Origin: an uncultured Bacteroidia bacterium
GTDB lineage: Bacteria; Bacteroidota; Bacteroidia; Bacteroidales; Prolixibacteraceae
DNA length: 35,523 nt
Assembly: GCA_903854235.1 (NCBI GenBank)
Contig: CAINVV010000035.1
Coordinates: forward strand, 1-35,523
Reading direction: 5' to 3'
In this document: positions 120-35,399 of the stretch, piece by piece
Layout: every line of letters begins with the position of its first letter
How positions within the stretch are numbered: position 1 is the stretch's first letter
Notes under the pieces: generated by a model
Told to the model about the DNA's origin: nothing
Database searches by the model: none
Seen by the model: only the letters and a program-made list of their open reading frames with translations
Program-made: the position numbers and the translations under genes

Positions 120-884
120 ATGCTGATCCTGCTATCTCCCTCCAAGACCCACGACCTCCACGCCGGCGGTTCAACTACGGACTATTCGATGCCGCTCTTT
201 CCCAAGGAGGCAGCCACGCTGATGAAGTATCTCAAGAAAATGAAGGTGGGTCAGCTGGAGGAGGTGATGAAGATCAGCCCCAAACTGGCCTGGCAGGTAC
301 AGGAGAGGATCGCACTCTGGCAACCTGAATTTACTTTTGCTAACACCAACCAGGCCCTCTACCTCTTCAAGGGAGAGGTCTACCACGGATTGGATGCAGC
401 AACCCTGCCGGTGGAAGTGGTAGAATATGCCCAGCGGCATCTGCGCATCCTATCTGGATTGTATGGCGTGATTCGACCGTTGGACCGGATACAGCCCCAT
501 CGGTTGGAGATGGAAACCGCCCTTCGGTTCGGAAAATACGAAAGTCTCTACCACTTCTGGAGGGAGAAAATTACCAGGCAGATTCTGGTGGATTTGAAGG
601 AGAGCGGTTCCAAACTGCTGATCAACCTCGCTTCGCAGGAGTATTCTTCTGCGCTGGAGATGAAAAAGCTGAAGGCAAAAATCGTCGCACCCCAATTTTT
701 GGAAAGCAGGAACGATTCCTTTCAAATGATTACCGTTTATGCCAAGAAGGCCAGGGGGATGATGGCCCGCTTTATTCTTGAGTACCAAATTAGCTGCGAA
801 GAGGATCTAATGGGATTCGACAGCGGAGGATATTGCTTCAATGCGAATCTGTCGAAGCCAGGAGTGCCGGTGTTCACGAGGTAA
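120..884 (+). CDS. yaaA: Peroxide stress protein YaaA (DUF328/UPF0246)
   Basis: This 254-residue cytoplasmic protein matches the YaaA family over its whole length. Visible family signatures are SPSKT near residue 6, FKGEVYHGL at 83-91, LSGLYGVIRPLD at 111-122, NLASQEY in the middle and an ARGMMARF block toward the C terminus. In E. coli, YaaA limits intracellular iron during hydrogen peroxide stress and so protects DNA from Fenton damage; it is also known to bind DNA. The same role is inferred here. The ATG is preceded by an A-rich stretch, typical of Bacteroidota, and the first residues already belong to the family core, so the start is secure. It stands alone on the plus strand, convergent with the uracil glycosylase gene. 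Its stop codon TAA runs directly into an AGTGAAA repeat array. Confidence 0.93.
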   Translation: MLILLSPSKTHDLHAGGSTTDYSMPLFPKEAATLMKYLKKMKVGQLEEVMKISPKLAWQVQERIALWQPEFTFANTNQALYLFKGEVYHGLDAATLPVEVVEYAQRHLRILSGLYGVIRPLDRIQPHRLEMETALRFGKYESLYHFWREKITRQILVDLKESGSKLLINLASQEYSSALEMKKLKAKIVAPQFLESRNDSFQMITVYAKKARGMMARFILEYQISCEEDLMGFDSGGYCFNANLSKPGVPVFTR

Positions 885-947
885 GTGAAAAGTGAAAAGT
901 GAAAAATAATGAAAATGATGGATTTGTTGTGTAGATAGGAGATCTGG
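884..947 (+). repeat. Composite intergenic repeat, copy R1 (AGTGAAA array plus tail)
   Basis: Three perfect 7-bp units AGTGAAA start at the last base of the yaaA stop codon (884-904). They are followed by an ATG/TGA-rich stretch and a tail with TTGTTG and GGAGATCTGG. The same order of parts recurs after the SRAP gene (R3), and related copies lie at R2, R4, R5 and R6. Function unknown. Confidence 0.75.
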
Positions 948-1034
948 CGTTTGCAATCAAATAAAAGTGTTGTTGAAGATGCGATTTGGAAATCCCTTCA
1001 CCCTGAACGATATCGTGCCGCAATTTTCATCGCG

Positions 1035-1091
1035 GAAATGCTGGTGTTTTCATTAACTGCTGTGCGATTAAAAATCGCACCACCAGATTTC
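1035..1091. other. Nested inverted repeat (possible structured RNA or repeat element)
   Basis: An inner perfect hairpin GTGCGATT-AAA-AATCGCAC (1062-1080) sits inside an outer pairing of GAAAT(G)CTGGTG (1035-1046) with CACCAGATTTC (1081-1091), which has a single bulged G. The 15-base stretch 1047-1061 on the 5' side is unpaired. No T-tract follows, so it does not look like a simple terminator. It lies in the 510-bp space between the convergent yaaA and glycosylase genes, which otherwise holds repeats and no convincing gene. Confidence 0.5.
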
Positions 1092-1149
1092 ACTTCTTTA
1101 TAAATCCGGACTAAAAGAATTTCTTAATTGGTGTGGAATTCGTGGTTGG

Positions 1150-1189
1150 AATTTTCATTATCCATCATTTTTCACTTTTCACTTTTTCC
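1150..1189 (-). repeat. Composite repeat, short copy R6
   Basis: Read on the minus strand this is a short GTGAAAAG array followed by ATGATGGATAATGAAAA. It has the same word content as R1 and R3 but lacks the tail. It lies directly beside the hairpin element at 1193. Confidence 0.6.
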
Positions 1190-1192
1190 ATC

Positions 1193-1283
1193 GGTTGAAC
1201 CCGCTTCGGGGTTCCGGATCTCCGCCAGGCGCCCTCCCCCCCGGTTTCACCGGGGGTTATTCACATTCAAGTCCTTTGGACTT
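1193..1283 (+). repeat. Three-hairpin intergenic element, copy 1
   Basis: Three small perfect hairpins follow one another: GAACCC-GCTTCG-GGGTTC (1197-1214), CCCCCGGT-TTC-ACCGGGGG (1238-1256) and AAGTCC-TTT-GGACTT (1269-1283). The first 28 bases (1193-1220) recur in inverted orientation at 6624-6651 with a single mismatch, so this is a dispersed element and not chance structure. ORF 1128-1451 runs through it and through the repeats and is not credible as a gene. Confidence 0.65.
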
Positions 1284-1297
1284 ATTGACCAGCGAAT

Positions 1298-1397
1298 CTT
1301 GATCCTTCCTCCAACATCCATCATTCATCATTTTTCACACATCCCTCATTTATCACTTTTCATTCATCCTTCATCCTTCATCATTCTTCACTTCTCA
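1298..1397 (-). repeat. Composite repeat, copy R2, at the glycosylase stop codon
   Basis: On the minus strand the glycosylase stop TGA (1397-1395) is itself part of the array (ATGTGAGAAGTGAAG). About 80 bases of degenerate GTGAAAA and ATGAAGG words follow, then a tail with ATGTTGGAGGAAGGATC. Orientation relative to the gene is the same as for R1 and R3. Confidence 0.65.
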
Positions 1398-2087
1398 CAT
1401 CCTCTTAAACGCCCCTACATATTTATCCAGATACACCTGCTTGGATTTTGATTTGTACTGCATCACAAACCGGGGATGCTCCAGGGCGATGATCTCCCCG
1501 AAGAAATGGAACTTGTCGTTGAGCGACCGCAGGTATTTTTCGTTCTGACCAGTGCCGAAACAGTAGCAAATATCTGTCTGCATCCCGAGGGCAATCAGCT
1601 TCCGGATGTTTTCGATGCTGTACTCGTAAATGGCTGCCGACAGCTCTTTGCTGTCGTAATAGTTGTAATTCTTCTCCTTCCCTCCTTCGTCGGTGATAGT
1701 GAATCCGAGCGGAACGACCGAATTGATGAAGAAATCCCTGTAAAAAGCGTGCGTTCCGCCGTAGACGTCAATCACTTCGTAGACAAACACGGAGGAGGGT
1801 TCGTGCGTCGATTTGCCTGTGTAGGCGATCTCACACTCCTTGTTCAGGCGCTTGGTGTCTGTGAAGGGAATCCCTGTCACGCCGGCACCAAAGCGACCCG
1901 GATTGATTCCCAGAATCAGATGTCGGGGATGGTTATCGTCGTAGAATTTACGGTAGAATGCACTTGAAAGTGGCAGAATCTGTTCGTTTTCGACGAAAGG
2001 GTTCATGATCCGAATGCCTTCGGGTAAGCTGCCGTCGAAACGGAGCGAACGGTTGAATTCAATAATTCTGTCTGCTAAAGTCTGCAT
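1395..2087 (-). CDS. SMUG2-type uracil-DNA glycosylase family protein (DUF4918)
   Basis: This 230-residue protein carries the two catalytic motifs of the uracil-DNA glycosylase superfamily in their SMUG2 form: LGINPGRFGAGVTGIPFTD at about 59-77 (with Asn62 in the position that activates water) and EHPRFVMQY at about 203-211. SMUG2 enzymes remove deaminated bases such as uracil, and some also remove hypoxanthine or xanthine, starting base excision repair. The first residues (MQTLADRIIEF) fit the family N terminus, so the start is good. The gene begins only 4 bp after the stop of the upstream YncE/phosphatase gene, so the two are probably co-transcribed. Its stop codon is embedded in repeat R2. 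Substrate range cannot be read from sequence alone. Confidence 0.88.
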   Translation of the reverse strand: MQTLADRIIEFNRSLRFDGSLPEGIRIMNPFVENEQILPLSSAFYRKFYDDNHPRHLILGINPGRFGAGVTGIPFTDTKRLNKECEIAYTGKSTHEPSSVFVYEVIDVYGGTHAFYRDFFINSVVPLGFTITDEGGKEKNYNYYDSKELSAAIYEYSIENIRKLIALGMQTDICYCFGTGQNEKYLRSLNDKFHFFGEIIALEHPRFVMQYKSKSKQVYLDKYVGAFKRM

Positions 2088-2091
2088 GATC

Positions 2092-4803
2092 CTATTTCGT
2101 GTACATCTTCTTTCGTTCGATCTCTTCGTCGTCCATGTCGGGTCCTTTCTCTATCTGCTTCCAGTCGATGGTTTTGTTGTATTTCTTCATCGCTTTTTCG
2201 GCATCAAAGATCCTGGAGTCGTGCAATTCCATCGTATAGGGAGTATAATCCGGTTTCGGTGTGAAAAAATCCTGCAGCAGGGAAGCCGTGGCATCGAACT
2301 GGTTGACATAAGGCACCCCGAGAAGGTTGTAGATGGTCTTCAGGATGGAACCGAAGTTGGCGTGCGTGTGGGATACATATCCCCTTTTCACATAGGGACC
2401 TGCCATCATCAGCACCGAGCGGTGGGCATCCACATGGTCAGCGCCTCCCTGCGGATCATCTTCCGTGATGATAACCAGCATGTTTTTCCAGTATTTTGTC
2501 CGGGAGAGAAAATGCAAAATCCGCCCGACCGCCAGATCGTTGTCGACCATGAAGGAGCTCTTGTACAGGTAGCCATCCTGTGGTCTAATGTCGGCGCCGT
2601 GATCGTTGGGAACCTGCATCGTCAGAAAGGAGGGCAGCTTTTCTTTTCCCTTGATCCATCTGGCGGTAAACTCCCGCTCAAACTGGTCCATTCGGTACTG
2701 GTCAGGGATGTTGGTATTGAATCCGGCATAATCGTGGCTGGTGCGGTTAAACAGTGCCTTTTGCATCGGAACCATCACTCCATGCGCGGCTCCTGTATTG
2801 GTATCGAACCACTCCTCGCGAACATGTCCGGTTTCATTGGCCTCCCCGAAATTATAGAAGGAGACGTTGGTTCTGTCGAGGGCTTCCCATAGTCCGCCAA
2901 TCTCTGCATAATCTTCTGGATCGATGCTACCTGTGGTGCAGGGGAAACGTCTGCCTGGCGCCTTTGAAAATATTTTTGAGCTCTTGGAGGCGCTTGAATT
3001 GGCTTCGACCCATTCGTTGGGAATGACCCCCACCATCCAGTGGTGGCCATGAATAGAGGCATCGCCGTCGCAATAGAAATTGTCGGAAAAGGCAAATTGT
3101 TTGGCCGCCTTGAGGTGGTTGGGACTGATACGAAGATCGGGAAACTTCTTTCGCATGGAATCGGGCAGGGTGTATTCGTTGTGTACCCCAAATCGTGCCA
3201 TGGTACTGTCTCCTGTCGCATTCTTCAGCTGACCGAAGATTTCATCGTAAGTCCTGTTTTCCTTGGTGATGTAGACCACGTATTTAATGGGGGATTTCCT
3301 GAGTCCCGGCAGGGCTGGCAGGGGATTCTTCACATCGTCGGTGATGGTGAGGGTCTGGAAGGTATCGTCTATCACCTGCTTCGTATAGGATGCCAGTTGA
3401 GCAGCATCGGGCATTTTCACCTTTTGGAAGGTTCCCAGCTGGATGTCGCCAATGTAACTGCCTTGCGGCGGAGCCACGAACCCCTTGCCTCCGTTCGGTC
3501 CGGCACCCAATCCCCGGCAGGTGATGATGTAAATTTCCTTTTCATCCTCCGACAAACGGACGCGTGTCGGTCCCCAGCAGGAGGGGATCAGTCCTTTTGT
3601 CGTTCTCGAATCAATGTCAATGACTGCTACAGAATTGAAGCCCAACAGGGCCACGTAAAGGGTCTTCTCATCCTTGCTCAGCGTGATGCCAAAGGGTAGC
3701 AAACCACGGTATTTGTTGATGCGCGGATCCACCAGAATCGGAATTTCTCCCAAAAGCTGGTGATTTTTGTAATCGATGATGGAGATGTTGTCGTTGGTGG
3801 CATTGGTCACGTAGGCAAATTGCTTGCCCACGGCGATCGAATTGGGACTGGCACCACCTACTACTTCGGCCCCTTCCACCATCTGTCCGATCTGGTGGCC
3901 GGTCTTGAATTTGTCCATCACCCGGTTGGTTTCCAAATTGATGGTGAACACGCTCATGGCATCCGGGTTCAACGGACTACCCACTCCGGGAACCTGATGA
4001 CCTTCCACAATCGTGCCATTGATTGACTCTTTGGTATTGTCGCCGTAGGGATGATGGGAGATCAGCAGGGAGTCGTAGTTCTTGGGCGTAGCCCCCGTGA
4101 TCAGTGGATAGGAATACATGCCCACATTGGCCACGAGGGCCGTCTTTTTATCGGGGCTCAGTGTGAGGCCAAAAGGGAGTCGGCCTACCGGGATAGAAGC
4201 GGTGATCTTGCGGGTGGTCAGATTGATACGGACCATTCTGAAATTGGCCCGGTCGAGTGCGAGCAGTTCGTTGTTCGTTTCATTCAGCACCAGGTCTGAG
4301 GTAAAACTATCCCCATAATCGGTGCCATTTACCTTGCCATTCAGGGAGATGGAGTCGGTCCGGTTCAGGGTTTCGGTGTTGTAGACGATGACGGCCCCAT
4401 TGTCGCCGCCGCTCAGGTAGACCGTTTTCGAATCCTTGGAAAAGGCGACACCCAGAAATGATCCTTTCGACAGAGGAGACTTGATTTTTTTGTCGTAACT
4501 GGGAACCCTGGTGACATGCAGGTCCTGGATGTCAATGATCGAGATGACCCCATTGTGCAGGGTCACCGATTTTTTTCCATCCGGCGAGATCGCCAGGCCG
4601 AAAGGGTCGTTGGTGATCCGGATCATCTCCCCGGCAGGATGGAGAAACCGGCCGCTTGGCAGGACGGTTGTTCCGTTGGGTTTGATTTCGGTGAATTTAT
4701 TCCCGGCTGGAACGGAGAGTATTTCGACCTTTTTTTGCGCCATCAGGGTTGGGCAGGATGAGGCAAAAAAGGCCACGATCAGGATACGAAAAAGGAATCT
4801 CAT
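2092..4803 (-). CDS. Exported YncE-like beta-propeller / alkaline phosphatase-superfamily phosphoesterase fusion
   Basis: This 903-residue protein starts with a signal peptide (MRFLFRILIVAFFASS, likely cut after LMA). Residues about 50-450 are YncE/NHL-like seven-bladed propeller repeats with phrases such as PFGLAISPDGK, PFGLTLSPDKK and AYVTNATNDNISIID. Residues about 500-880 form a phosphoesterase domain of the phospholipase C/acid phosphatase AcpA type: ITKENRTYDEIFG (metal-binding Glu-Asn plus the likely Thr nucleophile), SDNFYCDGDASIHGHHW, PNDHGAD and ITEDDPQGGADHVD. The fold belongs to the alkaline phosphatase superfamily and should hydrolyse phosphate esters in the periplasm or at the cell surface. 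The substrate is not known. The gene is divergent from the SRAP gene across 137 bp and is followed after 4 bp by the glycosylase gene; no functional link between those two products is obvious. Confidence 0.88.
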   Translation of the reverse strand: MRFLFRILIVAFFASSCPTLMAQKKVEILSVPAGNKFTEIKPNGTTVLPSGRFLHPAGEMIRITNDPFGLAISPDGKKSVTLHNGVISIIDIQDLHVTRVPSYDKKIKSPLSKGSFLGVAFSKDSKTVYLSGGDNGAVIVYNTETLNRTDSISLNGKVNGTDYGDSFTSDLVLNETNNELLALDRANFRMVRINLTTRKITASIPVGRLPFGLTLSPDKKTALVANVGMYSYPLITGATPKNYDSLLISHHPYGDNTKESINGTIVEGHQVPGVGSPLNPDAMSVFTINLETNRVMDKFKTGHQIGQMVEGAEVVGGASPNSIAVGKQFAYVTNATNDNISIIDYKNHQLLGEIPILVDPRINKYRGLLPFGITLSKDEKTLYVALLGFNSVAVIDIDSRTTKGLIPSCWGPTRVRLSEDEKEIYIITCRGLGAGPNGGKGFVAPPQGSYIGDIQLGTFQKVKMPDAAQLASYTKQVIDDTFQTLTITDDVKNPLPALPGLRKSPIKYVVYITKENRTYDEIFGQLKNATGDSTMARFGVHNEYTLPDSMRKKFPDLRISPNHLKAAKQFAFSDNFYCDGDASIHGHHWMVGVIPNEWVEANSSASKSSKIFSKAPGRRFPCTTGSIDPEDYAEIGGLWEALDRTNVSFYNFGEANETGHVREEWFDTNTGAAHGVMVPMQKALFNRTSHDYAGFNTNIPDQYRMDQFEREFTARWIKGKEKLPSFLTMQVPNDHGADIRPQDGYLYKSSFMVDNDLAVGRILHFLSRTKYWKNMLVIITEDDPQGGADHVDAHRSVLMMAGPYVKRGYVSHTHANFGSILKTIYNLLGVPYVNQFDATASLLQDFFTPKPDYTPYTMELHDSRIFDAEKAMKKYNKTIDWKQIEKGPDMDDEEIERKKMYTK

Positions 4804-4940
4804 GCGTTTGATATTTTGTTTTTTAGTTGTAGAAGGAACCGGGAACCGGTACCGTTAATAGTCGGGTTAAAATTATTCATTCCATTTGGTTATTTCACAT
4901 GGTCTTCTGCCATTTGCCCCATTTTTAGTATAATTGTATG

Positions 4941-5762
4941 ATGTGCGGACGATTTGTACAGGTCATAGACCTTGAGCTTTTTGTGAAACGGTTTGGTGTC
5001 AGCAGTGCACCGGAGATCAACCTTGCCTCCAGCTACAATGTGGCGGTGGGGGATCTGGCTTATGTCATCACCAACGACAAGCCAGGGGATCTTCAGGCAT
5101 TCCAGTTTGGCCTCACCCCCTCCTGGGCTCCAAAGAAGATGTATCTGATCAATGCCCGGTCGGAGGGGGATCTGAACCCTGAGAATGATGTCAATTACTC
5201 CGGGCAACTGGGAATCCAGAATAAACCCTCCTTCCGGACCTCCTTCCGCTCGAGGAGGTGTCTGGTGATTGCCAACGGCTACATCGAAGGTCCTGAGAAG
5301 GAGCGGCTGAACAAGCCCTTTCTGATCCAAAAGAAGGACGAGGAGCTGTTTTGCTTTGCCGGCATCTGGGATACCTGGGTCAACAATACTACCGGCGAGC
5401 TGACCAACTCCTTCACCATCATCACCACTGTGGCCAATTCTGTGACGCAGGAGATCGGGCATCACCGTTCTCCGGTCGTGCTCGATCAAAAGGATGAGCA
5501 GAAATGGCTCGACGATTCGCTGCCGCTGGAGGAGGTGCTGGGGTTGCTCAAACCCTATCAGGGGGAGCATTTCAAGGCAGAGGCGATCTCCATCAAGATC
5601 AAGGATCCGCACAACAAAAGCAAGGATTATATCATTCCCATCGATACCAATGGTCCGACCGAGTACGGATCAATCGTAACGAAAGATGTGAGGCTACAGG
5701 GGATGGGGGGTGGAAAAAGGAAGCAGTATCCGCCGCCGGATACGCAAGGGAAGCTGTTTTAG
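4941..5762 (+). CDS. SOS response-associated peptidase family protein (SRAP; YedK/HMCES type)
   Basis: The ORF opens with two consecutive Met codons. The second (4941) is chosen because SRAP enzymes need Cys directly after the initiator Met, giving MCGRF and 273 residues. Other catalytic residues are present: Asn71 and Arg73 in LINARSEG, Glu116 in ANGYIEG and His174 in GHHRSPVVL. The family crosslinks its N-terminal Cys to abasic sites in single-stranded DNA as a thiazolidine, shielding them from breakage and error-prone bypass. Small departures from E. coli YedK are Gly for Trp after the Glu and Ser for Met in the HxRxP motif. The gene is monocistronic, divergent from the YncE/phosphatase gene, and its stop abuts repeat R3. 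A TATAATTG (4929-4936) resembles a -7 box but lies so close that the message would be leaderless. Confidence 0.92.
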   Translation: MCGRFVQVIDLELFVKRFGVSSAPEINLASSYNVAVGDLAYVITNDKPGDLQAFQFGLTPSWAPKKMYLINARSEGDLNPENDVNYSGQLGIQNKPSFRTSFRSRRCLVIANGYIEGPEKERLNKPFLIQKKDEELFCFAGIWDTWVNNTTGELTNSFTIITTVANSVTQEIGHHRSPVVLDQKDEQKWLDDSLPLEEVLGLLKPYQGEHFKAEAISIKIKDPHNKSKDYIIPIDTNGPTEYGSIVTKDVRLQGMGGGKRKQYPPPDTQGKLF

Positions 5763-5840
5763 GGAGTGAAAAATGAAAAGTGAAAAGTGAAAAATGAGGG
5801 ATGATGTATGATGGTTGTTGGATTGGGGGAAGATCTGCCC
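5762..5840 (+). repeat. Composite repeat, copy R3, abutting the SRAP stop codon
   Basis: The array begins at the last base of the SRAP stop codon, runs through GTGAAAA/ATGAAAA units, then GAGGGATGATG words, then a tail with TTGTTGG and GGGGGAAGATCTG. Bases 5762-5791 are identical, 30 of 30, to 9680-9709 in R5. Confidence 0.75.
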
Positions 5841-5858
5841 AGATAGGCCCATTGTTAA

Positions 5859-5880
5859 CAGCCAATAGCCAACGACCAAT
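5859..5880. repeat. Short low-complexity CCAATAGC-type repeat
   Basis: CAGCCAATAGCCAACGACCAAT is a run of near-identical 7-8 base words between the convergent SRAP and higA ends. It resembles the other word arrays of this window in style but not in sequence. Confidence 0.35.
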
Positions 5881-5892
5881 CGCTTTCTTAAA

Positions 5893-6183
5893 CTATCCGA
5901 TTGAGATATTTAAATGCTTTTCGAGACCTACCTCGATGAGTTTGTAGTAGGTTGATATTTGAATATCACTTTGACCTTTCTCAATTCTTGAGATGTAGCT
6001 CTTTTTGGTACCGGTTCTTTCCGCCAGTTGTTCCTGGGTAATCTTTGCCTCCTGGCGTGCTTCCTTTAGCATAACACCCAGTCTGAATGCAAGAGAATCC
6101 GCATCAAATTTATCCCTTTGCGGGGAACCCTTTTCCCCGTACTTATCCTTTAAAAGATCTTCAAAATCAGTTAAATTCTTCAT
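5893..6183 (-). CDS. higA: HigA-type antitoxin, HTH XRE family
   Basis: This small protein has a Cro/C1-type helix-turn-helix in its C-terminal half (about LGVMLKEARQEAKITQEQLAERTGTKKSYISRIEKG). Short HTH proteins directly downstream of a HigB-like toxin act as antitoxin and autorepressor. The ORF track starts at 6204, but the internal ATG at 6183 (MKNLTDFEDLL, 96 residues) is preferred: AAGGAGG lies just before it (6187-6193), unusual in this AT-rich Bacteroidota context, although the 3-base spacing is short. With this start it overlaps the toxin gene by 17 bp, indicating translational coupling. The alternative start adds MKNTRRS. The locus is visibly more AT-rich than neighbouring dnaE, which suggests lateral gain. 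Confidence 0.88.
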   Translation of the reverse strand: MKNLTDFEDLLKDKYGEKGSPQRDKFDADSLAFRLGVMLKEARQEAKITQEQLAERTGTKKSYISRIEKGQSDIQISTYYKLIEVGLEKHLNISIG

Positions 6184-6526
6184 GCTCCTCCTTGTATTTT
6201 TCAATTAGGTATTCCCTTTTCAATTTCTCTGCAAGTTTGATCTCTTTTGCTGGAGTCTTTTGCGATTTCTTTAAAAAACAATTTGTCAGCACAACCAAAT
6301 CCCCTTTGTCGAAAAAGCATAGAATCCGGATATTTTTAAAAGTCGACATCACCCGAATTTCATAGATCTGTTCGGTATTTTCAAGATACTTTAGGAATTT
6401 TACCGGTACTTGCTTTTCGAATCGGACCAAATCGAGTACATATTCAATTTTATTCTGGATTTTAGGATCCTGCGATTTATAAAAATTCACGAAGTAATCT
6501 TTATAGACAACTATCCTTCTGATCAT
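6167..6526 (-). CDS. higB: HigB-type toxin (phage-derived Gp49-like, RelE superfamily)
   Basis: This 119-residue protein fits the Gp49/HigB family: an N-terminal MIRRIVVYKDYFVNFY strand-helix, IYEIRVMSTFKNIRILCFFDKGDLVVLTNCFLKKSQKTP in the centre, and a basic helical C terminus (AKEIKLAEKLKREYLIEKYKEEH). HigB toxins are mostly ribosome-dependent mRNA interferases, and the toxin-first order with an overlapping HTH antitoxin gene is the classic HigBA arrangement. Activity is inferred from family and context. A near-perfect 18-bp palindrome and a TAACTTTG -7 box lie just upstream of the start, consistent with repression by the HigBA complex. It is convergent with the SRAP gene. Confidence 0.88.
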   Translation of the reverse strand: MIRRIVVYKDYFVNFYKSQDPKIQNKIEYVLDLVRFEKQVPVKFLKYLENTEQIYEIRVMSTFKNIRILCFFDKGDLVVLTNCFLKKSQKTPAKEIKLAEKLKREYLIEKYKEEHEEFN

Positions 6527-6530
6527 TTGG

Positions 6531-6552
6531 CAAAGTTAACTAATTAGTTTAC
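6531..6552 (-). promoter_or_regulatory. higBA promoter -7 box overlapping a palindromic operator
   Basis: On the minus strand 6538-6531 reads TAACTTTG, a perfect match to the Bacteroidota -7 consensus TAnnTTTG. It overlaps GTTAACTAATTAGTTTAC (6535-6552), which is palindromic except for one symmetric mismatch pair. No -33 TTTG is seen at the right distance. The box ends 4 bp before the higB ATG, so transcription from it would give a leaderless toxin message. Confidence 0.6.
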
Positions 6553-6596
6553 TATTTTGACTCTTATGTGAAAAATTTAATTGCGGGTTTGAGATG

Positions 6597-6651
6597 AAAC
6601 CGGTGGGGGAAAAGACTATCCCTGATCCGGAACCCCGAAGCGCGTTCAACC
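6597..6651 (-). repeat. Three-hairpin intergenic element, diverged copy 2
   Basis: Bases 6624-6651 are the reverse complement of 1193-1220 with one mismatch; a diverged counterpart of the C-rich hairpin (GAAACCGGTGGGGG) follows at 6597-6610. The third hairpin is not recognisable. It lies between higBA and repeat R4. Confidence 0.6.
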
Positions 6652-6658
6652 TGGCTGA

Positions 6659-6734
6659 GGCCAATCTCCCCCTAATTCATCATCCAACATTCATCATCCC
6701 TCATCCCTCACTTTTCACTTTTCACTTTTCATTT
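6659..6734 (-). repeat. Composite repeat, copy R4, abutting the dnaE stop codon
   Basis: On the minus strand this begins 4 bp after the dnaE stop: three ATGAAAAG/GTGAAAAG units, then GAGGGATGA words, TGTTGGATGATG and a tail AGGGGGAGATTGG. It has the same order of parts as R1 and R3, in sense orientation to the gene it follows. Confidence 0.7.
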
Positions 6735-6738
6735 CCCT

Positions 6739-9678
6739 TCACCCTTTCGGATTGGGCTTGTACGGCAATTTTGCCATCTTCTCGACCTCTAACGAGGGAA
6801 AGCCGAACTCCTCCACCACCTTTCCCAGGATCAGGTAGACGCCCGGCCCCTTGAACGGATAATTTTTCAGGGAGTCGGGGAAATGCACCGTATCGAAGAA
6901 GTTGCCGGTCTGGTCGATGAAGGTGCCGAAGTGCATGATCTCCCTCTTGGAAGTGCGGACATATTTGATGGTGACCATCCTACCCACCATCCGGATTTTC
7001 CTGCCGAGATGCCGCAAAAGATCCCGCGCCATCACCTCTCCCCGGAAGCTGGTCTGGAGCAGGTCGAACATGCTCATCGTAACCGGAAAGCCCAGCAGCT
7101 CGATCTCGTCGTAGGCGTCTTCGATGGGAGAATAGTCAAGCACCGGCATCTCGAAACTCTTGTGCTCGGTCGGGAACATGCTGGCCGAATGGGTTCTGAC
7201 GGGCACCTTCCGCAGGTAGAGCTGCGACTCCCACAGGAGGGAACATTTGTTGGCTTCCAGCGTCCGGAAGGCCCCCAGGCGGACCAGGATCACCAGCTGC
7301 TCCTTGCCCACCGGCACCCGGTCGATGAATTCGTGGATGGAGCGGTACTCCCCGTGGCATTTGCGTTCGCTCAGGATCAGCTCGATGGTGGTGCTCTCCA
7401 GGTTCTGGACGTGGACGAATCCCATGAAGATGGTGGTACCGATGATCCGCGTGTGGAGCAGGCTCCTGTTGATGCAAGGCAGTTCGATGGTGGCACCCTG
7501 CCGCTGCGCCTCGTTGAAATAGACCCAGGTGTGGTAAAACCCGCCGAAATTATTGATCACGGCTACCATGAATTCGAGTGGATGGTGGGCCTTGAGGTAG
7601 AGGCTCTGGAAGCTCTCGACGGCATAGGAGGCCGAATGGGCCTTCGAGAAGGAGTAGCCCGCGAAGGATTCGATCTGCCGCCATACCTCCGCCGCCACCT
7701 CGTCGGAGCGGCCCAGCTCCCTGCAGTTGGCGAAATACTTCTCCTCGATCAGCCGGAACTCCCGGAGCGATCGGAATTTCCCCGACATCGCCCGGCGGAG
7801 CACATCGGCTTCGGCCAGATCCAGTCCGGCAAAATGGTGGGCCACCTTGATCACATCCTCCTGGAACACCATCACCCCGTAGGTCTCGCTCAGCTGCTCC
7901 TTCAGAACCGGATGGAGGTAGGTGAAGTCGTTGGGATGGTGGAACCGCCGGATGTACTCGCGCATCATCCCCGACTTGGCCACCCCGGGGCGGATGATCG
8001 AACTGGCCGCCACCAGGCTGATGTAGTTGTCGCACCGGAGCTTCTTCAGCAGTCCGCGCATCGCTGGGCTCTCGATGTAGAAACAGCCGATGGTCTCGCC
8101 ATCCTTCAGCTGCTGCCGGACCTTTGGATCCGCAAAGAACCTGTCGACCTGGTGAATGTCGATCTCCTTGCCACCGTTGTCGACGATGATTTCCACGGCC
8201 TCCCTGATGTGGCCAATCCCCCGCTGACTGAGGATATCCAGCTTCTCGAAACCCATCTCTTCTGCGATGTACATGTCCCACTGGGTGGTGAGAAAGCCCT
8301 TGGGGGGCATATCCAAAGCGGCATAGTAGGTGATGGGCTCTTCGGTCACGAGCATTCCTCCCGCGTGGATCGTCCGCATGTTGGGAAAATCGAGCACCTC
8401 CTGCCCCAGGGTCCGGATCATGTTGGCCGTGTCGTAGTTGTTGTAGCTGTTCCCTGGATCGTTCACCAGCAGGTCTATCTCCTCCTTGGGCAGGCCGAAC
8501 ACCTTGCCAAGTTCCCGGATGATCGACTTGTCGCGGAAGGTGGAGGTGGCACCAAGCAGGGCCGCATGGTTCTTTCCGTACCGTTTGAAGATGTAGTCCT
8601 GCACCTGGTCGCGGTCTTTCCACGAGAAATCGATGTCGAAATCGGGAGGACTGGTCCGCTTGGGATTGAGGAAACGTTCGAAATAGAGGTCCAGCTTGAT
8701 GGGATCCACGTCCGTGATCCGCAGGCAGTAGGCCACGATGCTGTTGGCGCCGCTCCCCCTTCCCACGTGGTAGAATCCCCGCGACATGCTGTAGTGGACG
8801 ATGTCCCAGGCGATCAGAAAATAGGAGGAGAAGCCGAGGTTGTCGATGATCTCCAGCTCGTGCCGGATCCGCTCCTTCGCGGTCTGGTTGTTTTTGCCGT
8901 AGCGGTAGAGCATCCCATCGTTGGCCAGCTTCTGCAGGAGCAGCCTGTCGTCCTCCTTGGTCTTGCTGTAGGTGCGCTTGTTCTTGCTGACTCTGAATTC
9001 GATGTCGATCGAACACTGCTCCATCAGCCACTCCGTATTCTCGATGATTTCGGGATAATGCTGAAAGATTTCGCGTAGTTTCCAGGGGGCGACCATCACC
9101 TGTTCGGGATCGGCAAACTGGTGGGGTTGCAGTTTGCTCAGCAGGGTGTTGTGGTCGATGGCCCGCAGGCATTTGTGGATCAGCAGCGACTTGTCGTCGA
9201 GGAAGGTGACGGGTTGCCAGACGACCAGTCTCTCGGGGTAGTCGCGGTATTCGGAGGTGACGAGCTTGTTGAGCTGGTGGGGACGGATACCCGTAAATTC
9301 GTTGTCGCCCAGAGCCGAGCCTGGCATCTTCCCGAAGGGATAGATCACGAATACCTGGCTGAAAGCGGGGGCCTCCTCCTCAAACTTTTCTCCGCTCAGG
9401 TTGTGTTGGGTGAGGTATTCGTTCAGCTCTTTCAGCCCCTCCCTGTTTTTGGCGATCCCGATAAAAAGCAGTTCGTCCCCATTTTTGAACTCCACCCCCG
9501 CAATGGGTTTGAGGTTCCGTTCCTTCGCCTTTTTGATCAGCTCCGGAATGCCCATGGAGGTGTTGATATCTGTCAGCGCCAGGGTGGTGATCCCCTGGAT
9601 GACGGCCTGGTCCAGCAGCTGGTCGAGGCTCATGGTCCCGTAGCGGAGGCTGTAGTAGGAGTGGGTGTTGAGGTACAT
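6739..9678 (-). CDS. dnaE: DnaE-family DNA polymerase III alpha subunit, short accessory (error-prone type) form
   Basis: At 979 residues this is clearly shorter than a replicative DnaE (about 1160). The N-terminal PHP domain is degenerate: MYLNTHS has Asn4 where the HxH metal motif has His, and TDI (37-38) replaces TDH, so PHP metal chemistry is probably lost. The polymerase core is intact: PPDFDIDF supplies the catalytic Asp pair (348, 350), and the third Asp is likely D481 in KLDILSQRG. The GRGSGANS and HAGGM motifs are present. An OB-fold region lies at about 865-960, and the C terminus is short, without a tau-binding extension. The Y-family polymerase gene is 162 bp upstream on the same strand, and an S24 regulator gene is divergent from that. 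By analogy with ImuB-DnaE2 cassettes, I infer translesion or damage-induced synthesis and not bulk replication. Both gene ends touch AGTGAAA arrays. Confidence 0.88.
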   Translation of the reverse strand: MYLNTHSYYSLRYGTMSLDQLLDQAVIQGITTLALTDINTSMGIPELIKKAKERNLKPIAGVEFKNGDELLFIGIAKNREGLKELNEYLTQHNLSGEKFEEEAPAFSQVFVIYPFGKMPGSALGDNEFTGIRPHQLNKLVTSEYRDYPERLVVWQPVTFLDDKSLLIHKCLRAIDHNTLLSKLQPHQFADPEQVMVAPWKLREIFQHYPEIIENTEWLMEQCSIDIEFRVSKNKRTYSKTKEDDRLLLQKLANDGMLYRYGKNNQTAKERIRHELEIIDNLGFSSYFLIAWDIVHYSMSRGFYHVGRGSGANSIVAYCLRITDVDPIKLDLYFERFLNPKRTSPPDFDIDFSWKDRDQVQDYIFKRYGKNHAALLGATSTFRDKSIIRELGKVFGLPKEEIDLLVNDPGNSYNNYDTANMIRTLGQEVLDFPNMRTIHAGGMLVTEEPITYYAALDMPPKGFLTTQWDMYIAEEMGFEKLDILSQRGIGHIREAVEIIVDNGGKEIDIHQVDRFFADPKVRQQLKDGETIGCFYIESPAMRGLLKKLRCDNYISLVAASSIIRPGVAKSGMMREYIRRFHHPNDFTYLHPVLKEQLSETYGVMVFQEDVIKVAHHFAGLDLAEADVLRRAMSGKFRSLREFRLIEEKYFANCRELGRSDEVAAEVWRQIESFAGYSFSKAHSASYAVESFQSLYLKAHHPLEFMVAVINNFGGFYHTWVYFNEAQRQGATIELPCINRSLLHTRIIGTTIFMGFVHVQNLESTTIELILSERKCHGEYRSIHEFIDRVPVGKEQLVILVRLGAFRTLEANKCSLLWESQLYLRKVPVRTHSASMFPTEHKSFEMPVLDYSPIEDAYDEIELLGFPVTMSMFDLLQTSFRGEVMARDLLRHLGRKIRMVGRMVTIKYVRTSKREIMHFGTFIDQTGNFFDTVHFPDSLKNYPFKGPGVYLILGKVVEEFGFPSLEVEKMAKLPYKPNPKG

Positions 9679-9679
9679 G

Positions 9680-9746
9680 GGGAGTGAAAAATGAAAAGTG
9701 AAAAGTGAAGAGTGAAGAGTTGAGAGGGGATGACGGGGAAGATAGG
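9680..9746 (+). repeat. Composite repeat, copy R5, at the dnaE start codon
   Basis: GTGAAAA units begin 2 bp outside the dnaE ATG, running away from the gene, followed by GAAGAGTGAAGAG words and a tail GGGGAAGAT. The first 30 bases equal those of R3. This is the one copy that sits at a start codon, so dnaE lacks a normal A-rich leader. Confidence 0.7.
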
Positions 9747-9778
9747 AAGACTTTAGGACTGTAAGACTAGGGGACTGG
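9747..9778. repeat. Low-complexity GACTTTAGG-type word array
   Basis: GAAGACTTTAGGACTGTAAG and following bases form about four degenerate 8-9 base words of the GACTNTAGG type, directly after R5 in the space between polIV and dnaE. No coding potential. Confidence 0.45.
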
Positions 9779-9792
9779 CGGACAAAGAAACC

Positions 9793-9838
9793 GGTCCCTG
9801 AGCGAGGTGGTCCCTGAGCGAAGCCGAAGGGTCGAAGG
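9793..9838. repeat. GGTCCCTGAGCGA repeat element
   Basis: GGTCCCTGAGCGA occurs twice (9793-9805 and 9809-9821), followed by AGCCGAAGGGTCGAAGG, and ends 2 bp before the polIV stop. Similar CCCTGAGCGAAGCCGAAGGG words occur as dispersed intergenic repeats in many bacteria; here it could also act as a 3' end structure. Confidence 0.5.
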
Positions 9839-9840
9839 TG

Positions 9841-10998
9841 CTATTTCGCCATCATGCCCGAGGCCCGCCGGATCGCTCCCGGCCCGAATCGAAGCCGGAT
9901 CTTGTCCATGGCGAGATAGAGTTTGATCCGCTCCTCGTTGTCTTCGAACAGGTCGAGCTGCTGCACCCCGTGGATCAATCCGCCCAGCTTCACCCCTACC
10001 AGCCGGATCAGCATCCTTCGCTCGTACAACCGCTTGAACAGCTCCCTGACGACACCGATCAGGACGTGGTCGAAGGAGGTGTAGGGGATCTTTTTCTGCA
10101 GCGTGTGCGTGTCGTAGTTGGCGTAACGGATCTTCACCGTCACCACGGAGGTGAGCTTCTCATTTTTTCGAAGCTTGAAGCAGAGCTTCTCCGTCATCGA
10201 GATCATCAGCTGGTCGAGCATCGCCACGTCGATGGTATCGGTCTCGAAGGTCCGCTCCTTACTGATCGACTTCTCCTCGCTGTAGGGCACCACCGGAGTG
10301 AAATCGATGCCGTGGGCCCTTCGCCAGATCTCGATGCCGTTTTGGCCCAGCACACTCTGCACCATCTCAAGAGGAACGGCGCTCAGGGTCTGGATCGTCG
10401 AGACGCCCATCGACCGAAGCAGCTGGTAGGTCTTGCTCCCCACTCCGGGAATCTTTTTAATCGACAGAGGATTCAGGAAGGGTTGCACCCACTCTTTGTC
10501 GACGTGCTTCTCCCCGTTGGGTTTTGCCTCGCCTGTGGCAATCTTGCTCACCGTTTTGTTGACGGAGAGGCCGAAGGAGATGGGCAGCCCCGTTTCACTG
10601 ATGATCGACTGGCGCAACTCGTGCGACCATTTGAGGGCTCCCCAGTAGCGGTCGATCCCGGTAATGTCGAGGTAGTGCTCGTCGATGGAGGCCTTCTCGT
10701 ACATCGGGGCCTTGTCGGCGATCACCTCCGTCACCAGTTTGGAATATTTGCTGTAGGAGTCCATGTCGCCACGGATCACGACGGCATCGCGGCAGAGGTT
10801 CAGCGCCATCTTCATCGGCATGGCCGAATGAACCCCGAACTTCCGTGCCTCGTAGCTGCAACTGGCCACCACCCCGCGGTCGGAGACTCCCCCGATGACC
10901 ACGGGTTTGCCGATGAGATCCGAATTGAGCAACCGCTCCACGGATACGAAAAACGTATCCAGATCCATGTGCAAGATTGTCCTGTCCTGAAGTTGCAT
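9841..10998 (-). CDS. dinB: Y-family DNA polymerase (Pol IV/DinB-like)
   Basis: This 385-residue translesion polymerase has the palm motif HMDLDTFFVSVE (catalytic Asp near residue 12 and Phe steric gate) and SIDEHYLDIT, which supplies the second acidic pair; His replaces the usual Ala/Gly of SIDEAYLD. A helix-hairpin-helix (IKKIPGVGSKTYQLLRSMG) and little-finger domain follow. QLDLF at 347-351 is a canonical beta-clamp-binding motif. It is not at the very end: 34 residues follow (AMDKIRLRFGPGAIRRASG), resembling the UmuC/ImuB-type tail more than E. coli DinB. The gene is divergent from the S24 regulator and upstream of dnaE on the same strand, so a shared damage-tolerance operon is likely. 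The start agrees with the family N terminus. Confidence 0.92.
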   Translation of the reverse strand: MQLQDRTILHMDLDTFFVSVERLLNSDLIGKPVVIGGVSDRGVVASCSYEARKFGVHSAMPMKMALNLCRDAVVIRGDMDSYSKYSKLVTEVIADKAPMYEKASIDEHYLDITGIDRYWGALKWSHELRQSIISETGLPISFGLSVNKTVSKIATGEAKPNGEKHVDKEWVQPFLNPLSIKKIPGVGSKTYQLLRSMGVSTIQTLSAVPLEMVQSVLGQNGIEIWRRAHGIDFTPVVPYSEEKSISKERTFETDTIDVAMLDQLMISMTEKLCFKLRKNEKLTSVVTVKIRYANYDTHTLQKKIPYTSFDHVLIGVVRELFKRLYERRMLIRLVGVKLGGLIHGVQQLDLFEDNEERIKLYLAMDKIRLRFGPGAIRRASGMMAK

Positions 10999-11071
10999 GT
11001 TCGACGAAGGTTGCCTGTTAAGATAAAATTCTACCCGGATTCTTGTTTCATTCGGAATAAATAGCTACATT

Positions 11072-11103
11072 TGACTATATTTTTGTCATTTGTACGACTA
11101 CAA
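11072..11103 (+). promoter_or_regulatory. S24 regulator promoter with candidate operator
   Basis: TATTTTTG at 11078-11085 matches the -7 consensus TAnnTTTG and is framed by TGAC-N9-GTCA (11072-11088). Just downstream, over the expected transcription start, lies the perfect dyad TTGTA-CGAC-TACAA (11090-11103). No good -33 box is seen. The position suits autorepression by the divergent regulator and could also control polIV-dnaE on the other strand. Confidence 0.5.
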
Positions 11104-11130
11104 TATAATCTACTTTAAACAATTCTGTAC

Positions 11131-11934
11131 ATGTTTCTCTCGGAAAATTTAAAATTTTTGCGAAAAAGGCGGAGGCTGACGCAGCAGGACCTTGCGGAGA
11201 TGCTGAATACCAAGCGATCGAGCATCAACAATTACGAGAACGGCACCACCTTTCCTCCTGTGAACATCCTGATCGGCCTCTCCGACCTGTTTCACCTCTC
11301 CATCGACACGTTGGTGCGCATCAACCTGCCGGGGTTACGGGAGAGCCAGATGTATGTCATCGAGCACGGCTCCGATGTGTTTGTGAAGGGGAACGAGGTG
11401 CGGGTACTGGCCACTACCGTGGATGCGCGGAACAAGGAGAACATCGAGATTGTCTCCATCAAGGCGAAGGCCGGTTACACCACCGGCTATTTCGATCCGG
11501 AGTTCATCTCCGCACTGCCCAACTTCCAGCTTCCGATGCTGACCAGGGAGAAAAAATACCGTGCCTTTCAGATTTCAGGCGATTCGATGCTGCCGGTCCG
11601 CGACAAAAGCTGGGTGGTTGGGGAGTATGTGCAGGATCTGCACACCATCAAGGACGATCACCCCTACATCGTGCTGACGCTGAACGAAGGGGTGGTCTTC
11701 AAAAATGTCAGGAACGAACTGGCCGAAAAAGGCAGTCTGCGGATGATCTCCCTCAACACCGAGTATGATCCCTACGATCTCCCCATCGGTGAAATCAGGG
11801 AGGTGTGGAAATTTGTGCTTTATATCACCGACGAGATTCCGGAATCGGCCGACAACCAGCAGATCTACAAAAAACTGGAGCAAATTCAGCAGGAGATCGG
11901 GAAAATGAGGAACCAGGCAGCGAATCAGACCTAA
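11131..11934 (+). CDS. LexA/UmuD-like regulator: HTH XRE plus S24 self-cleaving peptidase
   Basis: This 267-residue protein joins an XRE helix-turn-helix (about 5-57, RRLTQQDLAEMLNTKRSSINNYENG) to an S24 peptidase domain. The catalytic Ser152 is in FQISGDSMLP and the Lys191 in GVVFKNV; A114-G115 in IKAKAGYTTG is a plausible self-cleavage site, as in LexA Ala-Gly. A short coiled-coil tail (about 240-262) follows, unusual for LexA itself. The architecture is that of phage CI/LexA-like repressors that lose function upon RecA-stimulated cleavage. Because it is divergent from polIV and dnaE with a palindrome between, I infer that it represses this mutagenesis cassette and its own gene. It is convergent with the PAS kinase gene, 27 bp apart. 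DNA-binding specificity is not known. Confidence 0.88.
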   Translation: MFLSENLKFLRKRRRLTQQDLAEMLNTKRSSINNYENGTTFPPVNILIGLSDLFHLSIDTLVRINLPGLRESQMYVIEHGSDVFVKGNEVRVLATTVDARNKENIEIVSIKAKAGYTTGYFDPEFISALPNFQLPMLTREKKYRAFQISGDSMLPVRDKSWVVGEYVQDLHTIKDDHPYIVLTLNEGVVFKNVRNELAEKGSLRMISLNTEYDPYDLPIGEIREVWKFVLYITDEIPESADNQQIYKKLEQIQQEIGKMRNQAANQT

Positions 11935-30889: not shown

Positions 30890-30997
30890 ATGTTTTTATT
30901 ATAGTATTGTATGAATCAACTGAATAACCAAGCAAATGAACAGAGGATAAATTCGATGTGTTTTCCCAAACCAAAACCAATTTCCTTTTACCAGCAC

Positions 30998-31021
30998 ATT
31001 AGCAAATTAGCATATTAGCAA
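30998..31021. repeat. Tandem 8-bp repeat ATTAGCAW x3
   Basis: ATTAGCAA, ATTAGCAT and ATTAGCAA follow without gaps, then ATTGCC, ending 6 bp before the deacetylase stop codon. As with the AGTGAAA arrays, it is an intergenic word array close to a stop codon. Confidence 0.65.
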
Positions 31022-31027
31022 ATTGCC

Positions 31028-31738
31028 TTATGCCCACTTGCGAAGGTGCTTGAAATTGATGCGTAGCTTTTTGATTCGTTGAATATAGGTGGTAACAAAC
31101 AATCTGCGCACTTTGGGAAATTCGATTTTTTTGAACTCGTATCCCTCGGCCTTCAGTGTTTCAATGGCTCTTGGAAGAGCCCACCTCAGATGAGCCTCTG
31201 CCTTGTAGGAATCGTGAAAAGTGATGATGCTGCCCGATCTGACGAACTTCAAAACATTTTCCAAAACCTCTTCTCTGGTAATGTTGGTGTTGTAATCGCA
31301 GGAGATTACATCCCACATCACGATTTTGTATTTTTGAGACAGAAATAGATACTGTCCCCTGGTCAGCCAACCGTGTGGCGGACGAAAAAGGTTGGAACCG
31401 ATCAGCCTGTTGGCCAGTTCAATGTCTTTAAAATACTCCAGATTACTCGTTTTCAATCCTTGCAGATGGTGATAGGTATGGTTGCCAACGGCGTGACCAT
31501 CTTCCAGTATCTGTTCAAAGATTTCGGGATAGCGAAAAACATTCTCGCCCACGGCAAAGAAGGTTGCCTTCACCTGATGTTCATTCAGCAGATCAAGTAC
31601 CCAGGGAGTTACCGTAGGAACCGGACCATCATCAAAGGTCAGGTAAACTGACTTTTCTTCTGCAGGCATACGCCACACAGCGGCTGGAAACCACTTGGTG
31701 AAAAAACCCGGCAGATGGACCTGTAACTTAAACTTCAT
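31028..31738 (-). CDS. Polysaccharide deacetylase, NodB domain (CE4)
   Basis: This 236-residue protein is a near-minimal NodB domain. All five CE4 motifs are visible: TFDDGP (Asp36 base, Asp37 metal), the metal pair His87 and His91 in GNHTYHH, FRPPHGW (119-123), MWDVISCDY and TFHDS. It should remove acetyl groups from N-acetylated glycans, such as peptidoglycan or surface polysaccharide. There is no classical signal peptide, only an amphipathic start (MKFKLQVHLPGFFTKWFPAAVW), so membrane association or a cytoplasmic lipid-linked substrate are both possible. It lies between DUF2723 and exbB on the same strand with gaps of 71 and 138 bp, so co-transcription is uncertain. Confidence 0.88.
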   Translation of the reverse strand: MKFKLQVHLPGFFTKWFPAAVWRMPAEEKSVYLTFDDGPVPTVTPWVLDLLNEHQVKATFFAVGENVFRYPEIFEQILEDGHAVGNHTYHHLQGLKTSNLEYFKDIELANRLIGSNLFRPPHGWLTRGQYLFLSQKYKIVMWDVISCDYNTNITREEVLENVLKFVRSGSIITFHDSYKAEAHLRWALPRAIETLKAEGYEFKKIEFPKVRRLFVTTYIQRIKKLRINFKHLRKWA

Positions 31739-35323: not shown

Positions 35324-35399
35324 TGACCCGTGGTGTAATTGGCAACACGTCTGATTTTGGTTCAGAAGAGTCCTAGTTCGAGCCTAGGCGGGTCAACCA
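35324..35399 (+). tRNA. tRNA-Gln (anticodon UUG)
   Basis: A complete 76-nt cloverleaf can be drawn: acceptor TGACCCG with CGGGTCA, including the U1-A72 pair typical of glutamine tRNAs; D arm GTGTAATTGGCAACAC; anticodon stem TCTGA/TCAGA with loop TTTTGGT, giving UUG; T arm CCTAG-TTCGAGC-CTAGG. CCA is encoded. The discriminator base is A where E. coli tRNA-Gln has G. Confidence 0.95.

Follow-up and report, generated by a model that had tools for sequence, protein, structure and literature searches.

Tandem heptanucleotide repeats reportedly occur in three kinds within the single genome of Calothrix PCC 7601 (Mazel et al., as cited in PMC4692102), and the arrays considered here have a tandem heptanucleotide organization too. 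A comparable kind of repeat is represented by the GGGAATC and GGGGA(C/T)T heptamers of two Xanthomonas species and of Nostoc, which are intergenic, occur genome-wide and lie either at most 50 bp from stop codons on the coding strand, with some overlapping the stop codon, or, on the non-coding strand, no more than 50 bp ahead of an ORF; convergent pairs are frequent, repeat length and sequence vary between related species, and no function was found (Rehm et al. 2015, PMC4692102). Moreover, TAACTGA direct repeats are patchily distributed across phyla, in Beggiatoaceae, Cyanobacteria and five Bacteroidetes, and in the best-studied genome they are located mostly just upstream of start codons, where a translational role has been proposed for them (MacGregor 2015, PMC4679880).

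The arrays of the Bacteroidota genome analysed here fit the description of Rehm et al. on the stop side, save for the unit and its quadruplex potential. Specifically, they consist of 7-bp tandem units, mainly intergenic, on the sense strand and at stops (19 contacts versus 0.69 expected; G over C on the gene's strand 50:5, see below). The Rehm repeats, found in a different phylum, employ one G-quadruplex-capable unit, whereas here many units are present, mostly without G-runs, together with octamers, and congeners differ in the unit that fills a given slot. The arrays are unlike the GGGNATC unit, whose four G-tracts can form a G-quadruplex, in that GTGAAAA, ATATGAG, GGATAAA and most others have no G3 runs. 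The TAACTGA repeats are likewise intergenic heptamer arrays, found in Bacteroidetes and mixed with other heptamers; in contrast to that single studied unit placed before starts, other units are placed here at stops. The arrays probably correspond, within Bacteroidota, to the heptameric intergenic repeats of Xanthomonas and cyanobacteria. The earlier sequence-only reading knew of no named family but allowed for one under another name; a comparable named kind that follows the same placement rule does exist.

The window, that is, the whole stretch of DNA analysed, is a 35,523-bp contig (C35) of the 3.8-Mb draft genome, in 298 contigs, of a lake bacterium; for its dnaE, the relatives that bear a name come from metagenome-assembled Prolixibacteraceae, such as a Tangfeifania MAG at 93% identity. 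It contains the following arrays:

882..915, plus strand: R1, the yaaA stop TAA (882-884) with (GTGAAAA)n directly after it from 885, degenerate to about 947.
1156..1192, minus strand: R6, a short GTGAAAA array away from any stop.
1303..1397, minus strand: R2, a degenerate heptamer array that begins inside the TGA (1397-1395) of a uracil-DNA-glycosylase-like gene.
5760..5831, plus strand: R3, the SRAP stop TAG (5760-5762), a heptamer array and the tail GGGGGAAGAT.
5854..5882, minus strand: a second heptamer array, of RTTGGCT type and unrelated to R3, about 11 nt past the stop of a convergent HTH gene.
6665..6741, minus strand: R4, the dnaE stop TGA (6741-6739), then a heptamer array and the tail GGGGGAGAT.
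9681..9747, plus strand: R5, a GTGAAAA array that abuts the dnaE start (ATG, minus strand, 9678).
30989..31027, minus strand: an octamer array of ATTTGCTA type that begins at the stop of the gene at 31028-31738 (minus).

The six copies R1 to R6 are present where the sequence-only reading had placed them, and four of them (R1, R2, R3 and R4) start 0-9 bases behind a stop, or inside it, in sense orientation. At these ends, the YaaA orthologues of congeners have the same terminal residue without the R1 array, the L162 homologue of the glycosylase-like gene behind R2 ends 2 residues later, and DnaE ends at the identical residue in the congeners L094, L101 and L159 without GTGAAAA. R5 is located 2 bp from the start of the dnaE ORF (6739-9678, minus) and not at its stop; it is followed by GGGGAAGAT and by a stretch of ACTNNRRG octamers that reaches about 9785, and its place is taken in congeners by different arrays or by none. 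The convergent SRAP and HTH (5893-6204, minus) genes carry one array per stop, with unrelated units, the RTTGGCT-type array pointing towards R3. Rfam gave no match at the arrays, the only match in the window being a tRNA at 35324-35396.

The copies had been described as composites of different parts; instead, each reads as one degenerate heptamer array in a 7-base register. R3, for instance, keeps the register while grading from AGTGAAA to GATGATG (TAG GG AGTGAAA AATGAAA AGTGAAA AGTGAAA AATGAGG GATGATG TATGATG GTTGTTG GATTGGG GGAAGAT). The 30 identical bases of R3 and R5 (from 5762 and 9680) are real, but the common descent that was deemed certain for them is too strong a claim, because 7 of the 1485 pairs of arrays compared within the sampled genome have at least 30 bases in common, which makes the identity unexceptional, and because its GGGAG/GGGG part is pre-existing flank, present in congeners without an array. 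Similarly, the tail held to mark the family follows R3, R4 and R5 only (GGGGAAGAT, 0-1 mismatch) and no further array among those tested, a local sharing within 4 kb (window 5830, 6665 and 9735), and a selfish element with a common tail is thus unsupported. The confinement of the copies to the first 10 kb is true of the GTGAAAA-type unit; the octamer array at 30989-31027 starts at a stop as well and, with a different unit, obeys the same stop rule as the GTGAAAA copies.

Genome-wide, three RTGAAAA units with at most 2 mismatches occur at 112 places, a count for which the backward pattern is an uninformative control, since GTGAAAA is identical when read backwards, up to rotation. Placement was assessed in the 479 kb around them with simple home-made gene calls. 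The 5' end lies at most 12 bp from a sense-strand stop in 19 of 54 intergenic GTGAAAA arrays, whereas random intergenic placement yields 0.69 ± 0.85 such contacts and reached 19 in none of 400 simulations; no antisense array is located at a stop among the same 54. The comparison with random placement, which had been proposed as a check of distance and strand, therefore places sense-stop contact far above chance, and the stop-anchored sense placement is strongly supported, both genome-wide and among relatives. When the unit is ignored, period-7 arrays contact stops 20 times versus 2.1 expected in the own genome and 15 times versus 1.7 in the congener G007, while contacts with starts, all small numbers, stay close to the expected number in the own genome (3 versus 2.4) and exceed it modestly in G007 (5 versus 1.8) and in G001 (3 versus 0.27). 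GTGAAAA arrays also occur at divergent starts (9 versus 2.1 expected), with a skew near background. The tandem periodicity of the own intergenic DNA peaks at 7; arrays of period 8 or 9 are fewer, those of period 4-6 or 10-13 are absent, and shuffled intergenic DNA has no such signal. The intergenic peak is at 7 in congeners too, with one array of period 10 in G007, and the exception is G004, with 7 arrays of period 8 versus 2 of period 7. In this congener, very long octamer arrays (ACTGGGAG; about 100-180 bp) lie between convergent genes (L244, 5292-6070). GTGAAAA arrays are present in 31 of the 297 Bacteroidota genomes sampled, and the same tendency of stop placement recurs in other families of the phylum, as 7 of 16 loci in six further genomes of two such families have a sense stop no more than about 20 bp upstream; the contigs sampled were partly picked for GTGAAAA, and the genomes are drafts whose assemblies can break at repeats. 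Polar growth, with fresh units at the 5' end and decayed ones at the 3' end as R1 and R3-R5 suggest, was considered and rejected, 101 free-flank arrays having no gradient.

The strand on which the arrays lie follows base composition. Of 56 heptamer arrays next to stops, drawn from several genomes, 50 have more G than C on the gene's strand and 5 the reverse, versus 118:90 at array-free flanks of the own genome. G over C persists when both strands offer equal stop frames (22:3) and when the antisense strand offers more (6:0), and arrays whose units contain few stops or none (TTTTCGA, GCATGGGG, GGTTCAA) are also located at stops. The strand rule is thus one of composition, with G over C on the coding strand, and not of stop codons, and the arrays form a wider class with many units, including GTGAAAA, ATATGAG, GGATAAA, GTTATGA, TTTTCGA and octamers. 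YC dimers, in turn, number 1.7 per 45 nt after stops on the sense strand and 7.4 on the antisense strand, versus 4.3 and 5.4 at array-free flanks, and the arrangement of neighbouring genes is no different from controls at stop-side arrays. Start-side arrays have the mirror skew; because start flanks are C-rich in general (158:78), the strand rule is firm only for the stop side. The strand-and-stop rule has been known for ten years for one quadruplex-forming unit and was left without a function. Its recurrence with many unrelated units in another phylum makes G-quadruplexes and stop codons unlikely as its general cause and directs attention to composition and to the ends of transcripts.

Within the genus, the slots persist from species to species, but the unit in them is often swapped. 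For 24 array-bearing stops, orthologues were sought in the remaining 7 of the 8 genomes that the genus comprises, and a slot was counted as filled when a 7-9-bp periodic array lay at most 75 nt from the orthologous stop. Unfiltered, an array is present at 52 of 86 orthologous ends versus 5 of 46 for control genes, a small set picked for having no array in the own genome (p about 1e-5 or less, orthologues being counted as independent); limited to ends followed by noncoding DNA, the figures are 33/55 versus 1/20 (Fisher p = 1.3e-5, on the same assumption). Retention is therefore 60% at array-bearing stops and 5-11% in controls. The units are unrelated in 49% of same-slot array pairs and similar in 32%, versus 7% similar between different slots. 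The permease-like gene before L039:15440, for example, is followed by GTGAAAA here, by GGCAAAA/GGATAAA in G007, by GTTATGA in G003 and by ATATGAG in G006, and the SRAP stop carries GTGAAAA here versus (GCTGTTA)n in L101 and L173, behind an identical TTTTAGGGAG. The unit repertoire is species-specific: GGATAAA has 1 match in the own genome and 156 in G001, ATATGAG 55 and 0, respectively. Among the open-licence papers searched, none was found to describe a turnover of units at conserved slots, or one rule across unrelated units. Such persistent slots with changing units are natural replicates with which to test selection versus slippage, and they make testable a pattern that is puzzling in two other bacterial groups.

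The preferred reading, with a probability of roughly one half, is that the arrays are slippage-driven 7- and 8-bp repeats that survive where they are least harmful, with the mRNA carrying the C-poor strand, any function being putative. Units would arise and spread through replication slippage and array-to-array recombination, and selection would filter which arrays survive: those in coding sequence would break genes, while directly behind a stop an array would be tolerated as long as the mRNA-like strand has little C. RNA past a stop codon loses its ribosomes, and a C-rich, YC-dense stretch there would load Rho. A C-rich 3' stretch behind the stop would thus attract Rho on ribosome-free RNA and be disfavoured, which would explain why the C-poor strand is the tolerated one, an argument from base composition, which the G-over-C orientation entails. 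Stop codons within the unit would add tolerance when slippage reaches the gene's own stop. A second cause may be at work on the start side, where the arrays are skewed the opposite way, near background, and a slot retention of 60% with changed units is high for merely tolerated DNA.

It is conceivable, though clearly less probable than the slippage reading, that selection keeps inherited gene-end slots behind the stop codon occupied by a C-poor periodic array while the unit is repeatedly swapped, position and strand being conserved and sequence not, for many 7- and 8-bp units and in several phyla. A functional 3'-end element is rather unlikely; in this reading, certain stops would need an unstructured, C-poor periodic stretch behind them, as a binding platform or to protect the 3' end of the mRNA, and the choice of unit would not matter. 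Such an element would account for the filling of 60% of orthologous stops, about half with unrelated units, and for a strand rule that is valid across units; however, arrays are present at only part of the gene ends and share no sequence beyond composition, inheritance plus array conversion would give the same picture, and the 32% of same-slot pairs with similar units are what descent predicts.

A mobile element, or a dedicated enzyme that places G-rich heptamers at gene ends, or lengthens them there, through telomerase-like or REP-transposase-like targeting, is decidedly improbable. The 5' boundary is indeed sharp, with a gene touching the G-rich strand on its 5' side in 77 arrays and on its 3' side in 11, and several units coexist per genome and differ between species, but the arrays have no common terminal sequence or tail, neither palindromes nor target duplications are seen, the unit diversity is too great for one template, and no candidate enzyme was identified.

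Still less probable is the back-up function proposed by the sequence-only reading, by which a 7-bp unit with TGA is retained to supply stops in all frames. Stop frames are richer on the sense than on the antisense strand in 39 versus 7 stop-adjacent arrays (-25..+2), and the idea holds locally, as several genes now terminate on an array stop. Specifically, the C-terminal end differs from that of the orthologue in 38 of 87 comparisons for array genes and in 9 of 46 for controls, mostly by 1-3 residues and often since the gene now stops on an array TGA (...EIHE* to ...EIHEK*). Because many shifted genes end in this way, the arrays do reach into stop codons, and the stops within the unit render such overlap harmless, which is the true part of the idea. 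As a general rule it does not stand, because the orientation follows G over C where stop content cannot explain it (22:3 and 6:0, above) and units with few or no stops occupy the same place. The suggestion that arrays inserted near a gene's 3' end create the stop at which they seem to begin, to which the 38 shifted ends would lend themselves, is very improbable and largely refuted, as array genes end at the exact orthologous residue in 49 of 87 comparisons (controls, 37 of 46), the ancestral end is retained in yaaA, SRAP and dnaE with the array 0-9 nt behind, and no antisense GTGAAAA array lies behind an intact stop.

Other features of these loci concern the neighbouring genes and palindromic repeats. 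At 4938-11934, the window encodes an SOS-type cluster of SRAP, DnaE with a PHP domain, a Y-family polymerase (IMS) and an S24/HTH LexA-like regulator; it lies close to yaaA and the UDG-like gene and resembles an error-prone repair cassette. At 5893-6526 (minus), a Gp49-like (DUF891) gene stands beside the HTH gene, arranged like a HigBA-type toxin-antitoxin pair. In L094 and L101, a palindromic AAACCTGTCAGGTTT / AACCTGACAGGTT repeat is located between the Y-family polymerase and dnaE, and the upstream ORF ends inside it. Lastly, a GTAGAGACGTTGCATGCAACGTCTCTAC-type palindrome, whole or partial, lies beside several heptamer arrays (L045:100-150, L041:380-414 and L032:7090-7130).
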